Positions 35,183 to 37,896 of a stretch of 38,985 nt of DNA are shown one piece after another. The position numbers were made by a program, and so were the translations under genes. The stretch's first letter is position 1. Every line of letters begins with the position of its first letter. The notes beneath the pieces were generated by a model. It did not search any database. It saw only the letters and a list, made by a program, of their open reading frames with translations, and had not been told where the DNA came from. The stretch comes from an uncultured Alphaproteobacteria bacterium (lineage in GTDB: Bacteria; Pseudomonadota; Alphaproteobacteria; HIMB59), in assembly GCA_902617465.1 (NCBI GenBank), contig CACMWO010000005.1, positions 1-38,985 of the forward strand. The letters run 5' to 3'.

Positions 35183-36295
35183 GTGGGGGCAAAAAAGTCA
35201 GATTTTTTTGATTCAAGAGATAAATATTTATCATTTGTAAATTCTACCAACGAAAAAAGTCGAATAGCTTTTCAATTAGCGAAGTATTTAAAAAATTCTA
35301 AAATTACTAAGGATGCATTTAGAATTTTTGATGCTGGGACAGGAGATGGCTCAGTTATCTGCACATTGCTATCGGCTGTTCATGACAAATTCCCCGAAGA
35401 TCCAATTATAGTTGTTGGAAAAGAAATTAGTATCGATGATATTAACAGTCTTCTAAATTATCTTGGTTATAGATTTTTTGAACATAAGAATTTAGTTTTC
35501 TGTATAACAAATGCATCTTATAGAGAAATTAATGATAATCGATTCACAGATTGTAAATTAATTAAAAAAGAATTAGTTGGAAATTCAAGTTTTAGTTTCA
35601 ATCAGCAACTCATGAATATGGGTGAGGTTATAAGAAAAAATTGGGATATAAAAGAGGATACTTCTTCAACCATATTGAGACCGAAGCAAAAGACACTGAT
35701 GGTTATATATAGGAAGGATCAAAAAATTGCATTGAAGCATTTGATACCAAGTAAGTTAGAGAGTATTCCAAAGTTTTACGACTATATAATTGCATCTCAA
35801 GCTTTCAGGCTAAGATCTCCTTACGACAGAACACTTAAGCTAGTACTTATTCCATTATTAAAAATGTTAGATGTAAAAGGTCAGCTATTTTTTATTTATT
35901 CATCCGGAAATGATTTTTCAAAAAAGCTTCTCAAATTATTCTTTCCAAAAATTAATCCCTATCAATTTAGTGATCCCAAAAAATTTGTAGAAAGCCTGAA
36001 TAAAAAAATACCTCATTTTAGAAAAAAATTTAAAGTATCCATATCTTCATTTTTATTTTCATTTATAAACCTATCATTATCCTCTAAGAAAAAATTTTCA
36101 CCGATGAACTCTCTTGGATTATGGAATGCTATCACCTATGTTGGTCAAATATCCGAAAATGAACAAAAAAGTATTAAAATAAGTATTAATTTTCTAGATA
36201 AAATTAGCAATAGTGCAAAAAAACTTAAATTGCAATTTAGTGATTATCTTTTAAGATTTGAAAAGAATAATTTTAAAAGTCATTTGGATGAGTAA
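35183..36295 (+). CDS. SAM-dependent methyltransferase-like protein, function unknown
   Basis: FRIFDAGTGDGSVICTLL resembles class I methyltransferase motif I; GTG start; overlaps dddP by 8 nt. Confidence 0.55.
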   Translation: MGAKKSDFFDSRDKYLSFVNSTNEKSRIAFQLAKYLKNSKITKDAFRIFDAGTGDGSVICTLLSAVHDKFPEDPIIVVGKEISIDDINSLLNYLGYRFFEHKNLVFCITNASYREINDNRFTDCKLIKKELVGNSSFSFNQQLMNMGEVIRKNWDIKEDTSSTILRPKQKTLMVIYRKDQKIALKHLIPSKLESIPKFYDYIIASQAFRLRSPYDRTLKLVLIPLLKMLDVKGQLFFIYSSGNDFSKKLLKLFFPKINPYQFSDPKKFVESLNKKIPHFRKKFKVSISSFLFSFINLSLSSKKKFSPMNSLGLWNAITYVGQISENEQKSIKISINFLDKISNSAKKLKLQFSDYLLRFEKNNFKSHLDE

Positions 36296-37574
36296 TTTTA
36301 CAAGTAAATTTGCAGACCGTAAAATTGGCCCAAAGTTTTTCGAAACAATTAACCAAAATTTTGAAAATCAAGTATACAAACCTAGACTCTATGAAGAAAA
36401 AATTGACTTCGACCGTTTGCGTATGTACCGACTCAATAGAGTTTTAGAGCAACTACGATTAAATAATGTTGGTGCTTGCATATTATTTGATCCGATCAAT
36501 ATAAGGTATGCAACCGACAGTAGAAATATGAGTTTATTTACAATGCATGAACTCGTGCGATTCGTATTTATTTCTGCAGAGGGAAAAGTAATACTATTTG
36601 ATTATCCAAAGAGCGAGCATCTCTCAGAACATTTATGCACGATTGATGATATTCGAGCAGTTGATAGTTGGGATTTTTTTTCAGCAAATAATTTTGTTGA
36701 TAAAAATGCAAAAAAATGGGCTGGCACTGTTCAAGATTTAATGAGAGAGCATTCACCTGATAATAATTGCCTTGCAATAGATGTTTCCGATCCAGTTGGA
36801 ATACAAATGTTACTTAAACAGTTTAATGTTAAACTAGTGAACGCCCAAAAGTATATTGAGCTTGCAAGATCTATTAAATCTGATGATGAGTTAATTTGCA
36901 TGAAAGCTTCTATTGAGACTGCTGAAAAAGGAATGTGGCTAATGAGACACAAACTTCAGGCAGGTATGACAGAAGAAGAACTTTGGTCATACATGCATAA
37001 AGTCAATATTGAAAATGGTGGGGAATGGTTTGAGACTCGTCTTTTAGTATCTGGACCACGAACAAATCCTTGGCTTCAAGAATGCAGTAACAGAGTCATT
37101 GAGTCTGGAGATTTAGTTGCTTTTGACACAGATATGGTTGGACCGTACGGTTACTGTGCTGATATCTCTCGAACCTTTGTTGAGGGCAATCGTCTAAATG
37201 ATGAACAAAAAAGGCTCTACTCAATGTCTTTAGAGCATATTAATCATAACAAATCTCTGATTAAAGCTGGTGTAAATTTTAGAGAATTTGCAGAAAAATC
37301 CTGGAAATTGCCTGATAATTGCTACGATAATCATTATCCATGCATTATTCATGGTGTCGGTCTTTGTGATGAATGGCCACTTGTTGCTTACCCAAATAGA
37401 GATTTTAGCAACGCGGATTACTCAGCCAATTTTGAGGAAAATATGACTATCTGTGTAGAGAGTTATGTTGGTGAAGTTGGCGGCAAAGAAGGAATTAAAC
37501 TTGAGGATCAGTTCGTTGTAACCAAAGATGGCTTGAAGCAACTAAGTTCATTTCCTTATGAGATAGATATCTAA
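36288..37574 (+). CDS. dddP: DddP-like DMSP lyase (M24 metallopeptidase superfamily)
   Basis: Close to remembered DddP motifs: FDPINIRYATDSRNM, GGEWFETRLLVSGPRTNPWLQEC, FDTDMVGPYGYCADIS, IIHGVGLCDEWPLVAYP, CVESYVGEVGG, GIKLEDQ. Likely start is ATG 36288 rather than 36258. Confidence 0.87.
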   Translation: MSNFTSKFADRKIGPKFFETINQNFENQVYKPRLYEEKIDFDRLRMYRLNRVLEQLRLNNVGACILFDPINIRYATDSRNMSLFTMHELVRFVFISAEGKVILFDYPKSEHLSEHLCTIDDIRAVDSWDFFSANNFVDKNAKKWAGTVQDLMREHSPDNNCLAIDVSDPVGIQMLLKQFNVKLVNAQKYIELARSIKSDDELICMKASIETAEKGMWLMRHKLQAGMTEEELWSYMHKVNIENGGEWFETRLLVSGPRTNPWLQECSNRVIESGDLVAFDTDMVGPYGYCADISRTFVEGNRLNDEQKRLYSMSLEHINHNKSLIKAGVNFREFAEKSWKLPDNCYDNHYPCIIHGVGLCDEWPLVAYPNRDFSNADYSANFEENMTICVESYVGEVGGKEGIKLEDQFVVTKDGLKQLSSFPYEIDI

Positions 37575-37575
37575 A

Positions 37576-37896
37576 CTGATTGGATATTTTTATTTAGCTG
37601 CAGCGGTCTTCTTCGGGATACTTTCAAATAATTTTGCAAAAATATCAAATGGATACGAGAAATTCATACCAACCTCACTAAGTGCTATTTCCATAGTAAT
37701 CGCGGTCTTTTTTATTTCTAAGGTAATGAAGTTTTTACCAATGGGAATTGCCTATGCCTCTTATGCTGGTTTAGTGATTTTTGGAACGTTCATATTAAGT
37801 ATAATTAAGTTTGGTCAGAGTCCAAACTTATTTGGAATTCTTGGTTGTGGGCTGATTATACTTGGTATTGTTATGGTAAACGCTCTGGGTAAATAA
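37576..37896 (+). CDS. Small multidrug resistance (SMR/EmrE-like) family protein with non-ATG start
   Basis: Own translation: LIGYFYLAAAVFFGILSNNFAKISNGYEKFIPTSLSAISIVIAVFFISKVMKFLPMGIAYASYAGLVIFGTFILSIIKFGQSPNLFGILGCGLIILGIVMVNALGK*; four TM segments, PMGIAYASYAG matches the SMR PTGIAYAIWSG motif. Absent from the ORF track. Confidence 0.75.
   Translation: MIGYFYLAAAVFFGILSNNFAKISNGYEKFIPTSLSAISIVIAVFFISKVMKFLPMGIAYASYAGLVIFGTFILSIIKFGQSPNLFGILGCGLIILGIVMVNALGK

Follow-up and report, generated by a model that had tools for sequence, protein, structure and literature searches.

A DddP-like M24B metalloenzyme of a HIMB59-order alphaproteobacterium that falls outside the DddP clade

Gene organization of the locus

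The stretch of DNA analysed here, referred to as the window, comprises 38,985 nucleotides of an uncultured alphaproteobacterium and carries a dddP-like gene as the second of three tightly packed genes (35183-37896, Table 1). The open reading frame is intact, from an ATG to the stop codon at 37572-37574, as a first reading made from the sequence alone had already delimited it; an alternative TTG start lies upstream, at 36258, and homologues favour the ATG. The preceding gene overlaps the dddP-like gene by 8 bases, while the following one begins 1 base past its stop, with CTG (37576) or ATT (37579) as the start. The lack of an ATG, GTG or TTG start keeps this last gene out of standard ORF listings.

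Table 1. Features of the three-gene run (positions in the window)
Feature	Position	Strand	Remarks
370-aa protein of an order-wide family, FDAGTGDG motif	35183..36295	+	no Pfam match (at E 1), no PDB sequence match
dddP-like M24B metalloenzyme	36288..37574	+	428 aa; PF01321 + PF00557; 4rzy E 2.6e-90
SMR/Qac-type transporter, 106 aa	37576..37896	+	read from the DNA; PF00893 on identical relative in L020

The upstream protein was modelled with a pLDDT of 50, and its best fold match, a weak one, is a histamine N-methyltransferase (E 3.5e-3). It is possibly a SAM-dependent (N-)methyltransferase and may represent an unrecognised methyltransferase family. Its homologues are found in 31 of 40 relatives and also occur apart from the dddP-like gene, hence only some members of the genus pair the two genes. 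The SMR protein, scored through its identical relative, is best matched by the NCBIfam QacCGHJ model of quaternary-ammonium exporters, with 75 bits against a cut-off of 160, and the gene is present in 46 of the loci fetched, counting the window genome.

The source genome is AT-rich and comes from the HIMB59/AEGEAN-169 order, with 41 loci in named single-cell or metagenome assemblies, one of them labelled HIMB59. Sugar-use genes abound around the locus (GH1, two GH4, GH42, galactokinase, FGGY kinases and sugar ABC transporters), in agreement with the sugar-catabolism setting described in the sequence-only reading, and, also as stated there, acuI, acuK and prpE were not seen among the window ORFs scanned, which are a part of all ORFs of the window. 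Just past the 3' end of the window, relatives (L020/L022, L022:10719-11954; L298:18356-19899) have a three-gene ABC transporter and then a phosphonoacetate hydrolase, which matches PhnA over the cut-off, and an aldehyde dehydrogenase, a block that suggests phosphonate use.

Fold and nearest structures

The dddP-like protein consists of a Creatinase_N and a Peptidase_M24 domain. DddP structures top its PDB ranking both by sequence and by fold, with RlDddP (4rzy) far above chance at the E-value given in Table 1 and RdDddP (4b28) at 1.9e-85, followed by prolidases at about 1e-15. The AlphaFold model has a pLDDT of 54, a low confidence, and supports the assignment of the M24B fold only; for this protein and for its upstream neighbour the input alignments held close relatives only, which accounts for the low pLDDT of both models.

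The M24B fold and the two Pfam domains would also suit a peptidase or amidohydrolase (an Xaa-Pro dipeptidase, a creatinase or an ectoine-hydrolase-like enzyme), many relatives are publicly annotated as 'Xaa-Pro peptidase family protein', and hydroxyproline or amino acid genes are found close to two of them. DoeA/EutD ectoine hydrolase, creatinase and prolidase indeed have the two-domain pita-bread fold in common with our protein, but their solved examples are about 14-22% identical to it, the peptidase and DoeA equivalogs score 20-62 bits, far below their cut-offs (62 of 630 for PepQ, 41 of 575 for DoeA), and the creatinase equivalog has no listed match. Moreover, the protein has the sixth DddP-type ligand (RlDddP Asp297), which is absent from an M24 outgroup at 26% identity, and DddP itself shows no peptidase activity on valine-proline (PMC5395565). 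We therefore regard a peptidase or amidohydrolase as unlikely, and the earlier view of the gene as a member of the DddP superfamily of M24 proteins, and neither a prolidase nor a creatinase, is borne out, together with the complete metal site and the equivalents of Tyr366 and Asp377.

Active site and characteristic residues

To describe the active site we used the RlDddP numbering. All six metal ligands of the M24 site, as the sequence-only reading had claimed, align with those of RlDddP (D280, D282, D292, H355, E391 and E406, equivalent to D295, D297, D307, H371, E406 and E421), and they are kept in 33/33 DddP, in 23/23 members of the query clade and in 94/96 other DddP-like proteins. The proposed catalytic pair is formed by Y350 (Tyr366) and D361 (Asp377), the latter being the Asp of the GLCDEW segment singled out before; the pair is found in 33/33 DddP, 23/23 of the query clade and 75/96 of the other DddP-like proteins. 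W363 (Trp379) is present as well, and together with the pair it is retained across the query clade (23/23). In the structural work on DddP, Asp377 was proposed as the base, and the other chain was described as forming a tunnel with its N-terminal domain (PMC4108388), while a Trp is said to bind the DMSP sulfur (PMC5395565).

The motifs GGEW, ETRLL, SGPRTNPW, QEC and HGVGLCDEWPLVAYP are present and aligned with RlDddP, and the LCDEW segment is identical to that of roseobacter DddP. It should be noted, however, that the segments GGEW, ETRLL, NPW and HGVG-DEWP, which had been taken as DddP-specific, are widespread in DddP-like proteins, soil and root-nodule bacteria included. Since they are common to most of these proteins, at the sequence level they mark the superfamily and not the lyase, and as diagnostics of DddP they were rejected.

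Concerning positions that do separate the groups, we picked eight columns (Rl W95, N99, A103, F140, A214, R258, G282 and G400) from the DddP-invariant positions at which the query differs, so that they illustrate the DddP split and constitute no independent test of it. DddP reads WNAFARGG in 31/33 sequences and WNAYARGG, with a Tyr at F140, in the remaining 2/33, whereas the query clade reads F[L/E/N][Y/F]DC[N/S/K/H][S/N]N in 23/23; the query keeps 0/8 of the DddP residues, and two members of its clade retain Asn99. The N-termini differ likewise: among those compared, nearly all of the DddP clade show RKIDP or a near form, then RxEIGPT, mostly ending in LAFxEW, whereas the query clade lacks the motif RxEIGPTxLAFxEW and shows RKIGPKF followed by a different sequence. 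Both the motif and the column set were defined here from the sequences compared. The residue changes of the query clade may be located at the N-terminal-domain tunnel.

Profile scores and phylogenetic placement

Against the NCBIfam DddP equivalog NF043017 the query scores 373 bits (E-value 1.9e-111), 227 bits short of the cut-off of 600, and only profile positions 50-439 are matched. Many other matches below the cut-off also start at about profile position 50, with 280-440 bits and several copies per genome. Proteins at or above the cut-off occur in 12 of 385 alphaproteobacterial genomes and matches at E 1e-30 or better in about 80; judging from these profile matches, DddP sits within a much larger DddP-like M24 superfamily. 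In the alignment the query is 35-38% identical to roseobacter DddP, the characterised RlDddP and RdDddP included, and 38-45% to other members of the DddP clade, the maximum among DddP-like proteins being 49.5%. Its nearest relatives outside the order include proteins from Paraburkholderia, Pseudomonas sp. MPC6, Rhizobium and Caballeronia, at 43-48% identity.

A first tree was computed from 158 rows under LG+G4, with a DddP clade of 33 rows that includes RlDddP, RdDddP and the annotated Oceanisphaera DddP; both this tree and a 77-row mixture-model tree were built without the Fusarium, Aspergillus and Oceanimonas DddP enzymes. In the former the query lies outside the DddP clade (SH-aLRT 100) and forms with its HIMB59-order homologues a separate clade (SH-aLRT 100), and the latter yields the same placement. 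This clade sits among DddP-like proteins whose sources include rhizobia and Burkholderiales. AU tests rejected its grouping with the core (roseobacter) DddP (p = 0.0003) and did not reject a sister position to the whole DddP clade (p = 0.149). The backbone among the DddP-like clades is poorly resolved, hence the claim is limited to what these trees support, namely that the HIMB59 clade is not nested within DddP. Both trees thus speak against the identification of the gene as dddP, since placement outside the DddP clade is the outcome that the sequence-only reading had itself named as refuting it.

Taken from the sequence comparisons, then, the protein belongs to the M24B family, has an intact six-ligand site with Tyr366 and Asp377 equivalents and is placed outside DddP; by every membership test available that separates DddP from its relatives, it is probably not DddP.

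It could nevertheless be a divergent but genuine DMSP lyase, whose di-iron site would bind DMSP, with Asp361 taking the alpha proton, DMS leaving and acrylate being formed. The conserved ligands and Tyr366/Asp377/Trp379 equivalents of the whole clade, the exact roseobacter LCDEW segment, the rank of DddP as best PDB match and the sister position left standing by the AU test all speak for it, and the DddP family tolerates divergence: FgDddP and RdDddP share 32% identity, yet E. coli carrying the FgDddP gene produces DMS (PMC4108388). Against this stand the position outside the DddP clade and the shortfall to the equivalog cut-off, the change of all eight columns examined and the missing N-terminal motif, and the fact that the catalytic residues also occur in most DddP-like proteins, those of soil and nodule bacteria among them. 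Together with the gene content discussed below, we hold a DMSP lyase to be rather unlikely, though it is the main rival of the reading favoured below. The earlier claim of a dddP gene, and with it of DMSP cleavage by the organism, is weakened by the placement and by the broad occurrence of the motifs, and not disproved, because the sister relation to DddP was not rejected.

DMSP-related genes in the organism

The genome of the window encodes a DmdA homologue (G000:C7:14287-15387, L299) that is 96% identical to a relative's protein, and since the latter passes the cut-off of the DMSP demethylase equivalog, DMSP demethylation is likely in the source organism. This suggests that the cell meets DMSP, a point in favour of a lyase, whereas AcuI over the cut-off was found in 0 of 11 related HIMB59-order genomes, a point against it; neither the presence of DmdA nor the absence of AcuI decides the question.

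Eleven HIMB59-order genomes (G030 and ten others) contain 9-14 GcvT-domain matches each, at a size of about 1.4 Mb, several of them within long ORFs of 800-1000 aa; demethylation-type enzymes are thus strongly represented for genomes so streamlined.

Neighbourhoods in relatives

A dddP-like homologue is present in most of the searched genomes of the window's genus. One genome of this genus (G819, L155/L042) carries a decayed copy, with five TGA and three TAA codons inside; the genes around it are also broken up, and the assembly is possibly poor.

At many HIMB59-order loci a GbcA-like Rieske oxygenase is found close to the homologue, and at others a homocysteine methyltransferase. The homologue of G259 (L297) has divergent Rieske, ALDH, DHDPS-like, DAO and homocysteine methyltransferase genes alongside, and an L-carnitine-dehydrogenase-like gene lies 3' of the homologue in three f2 genomes. 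Outside the order, the DddP-like proteins of Rhizobium, Paraburkholderia, Caballeronia, Pseudomonas sp. MPC6 and Parasedimentitalea share the same ligands at up to about 50% identity and some of them have betaine or methylamine genes nearby, but their N-termini and pocket columns are diverse, and the operon with the SMR and 370-aa genes is particular to the query clade. The Rhizobium acidisoli plasmid relative lies in a set of Rieske, reductase and M24 genes with a 4-hydroxyproline epimerase and proline/betaine ABC genes; other plasmid relatives adjoin a Rieske and a hybrid-cluster reductase gene, and the Parasedimentitalea relative, also on a plasmid, has MttB and sarcosine oxidase nearby.

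MttB occurs within about 5 kb at 15/80 DddP-like loci versus 0/21 DddP loci, whereas the pooled methylamine/betaine markers, at 32/80 versus 4/21, do not differ significantly (p 0.12); neighbouring loci share ancestry and are not independent. A Rieske oxygenase was rejected as a required partner, being absent from the whole genomes of six near-complete close relatives. The neighbours in G259 and R. acidisoli are suggestive of a hydroxyproline (betaine) pathway, which was discarded as the direct context since proline racemase-family epimerases occur in 2 of 11 HIMB59-order genomes only. Overall, the neighbouring genes point to methylated onium substrates without proving them.

Proposed function

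The explanation we favour, with about an even chance of being right, is that of a DddP-like M24B dinuclear metalloenzyme which, with its HIMB59-order homologues, makes up a clade separate from the DMSP lyases and whose substrate would most likely be a betaine-type methylated onium compound, rather a quaternary amine than DMSP. A carboxylate substrate would bind at the di-iron site and Asp361 would take its alpha proton, both as proposed for DddP, while the leaving group or the cleaved bond would differ, because the DddP-specific columns and the N-terminal motif are not kept. Two things suggest the onium substrate: the operon, with its SMR transporter gene and putative methyltransferase gene, and the surroundings of relatives, where Rieske, homocysteine methyltransferase, DAO and MttB genes occur. 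A more specific version, which we consider quite improbable, is an M24 lyase with DddP chemistry (di-iron, Tyr/Asp) that would act on a quaternary-ammonium acid and release a methylated amine, working in HIMB59/AEGEAN-169 with the co-encoded methyltransferase and SMR exporter.

Implications for dddP surveys

The gene is not to be counted as evidence of DMS production by the organism. This bears on surveys, since dddP is reported to outnumber all other ddd genes in Tara Oceans data, with about 65% of the total (PMC10686828), and at least one global survey searched for it with an HMM at E 1e-30 and then checked residues and trees (PMC8520302). Although it is placed outside DddP, the HIMB59-order clade passes this E-value by a wide margin and has the residues proposed for catalysis, and surveys at E 1e-30 would probably retrieve it as dddP. 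Should the clade not be a DMSP lyase, the number of cells that produce DMS could be overestimated; should it be one, HIMB59/AEGEAN-169, a common open-ocean group, would be an unrecognised source of DMS.
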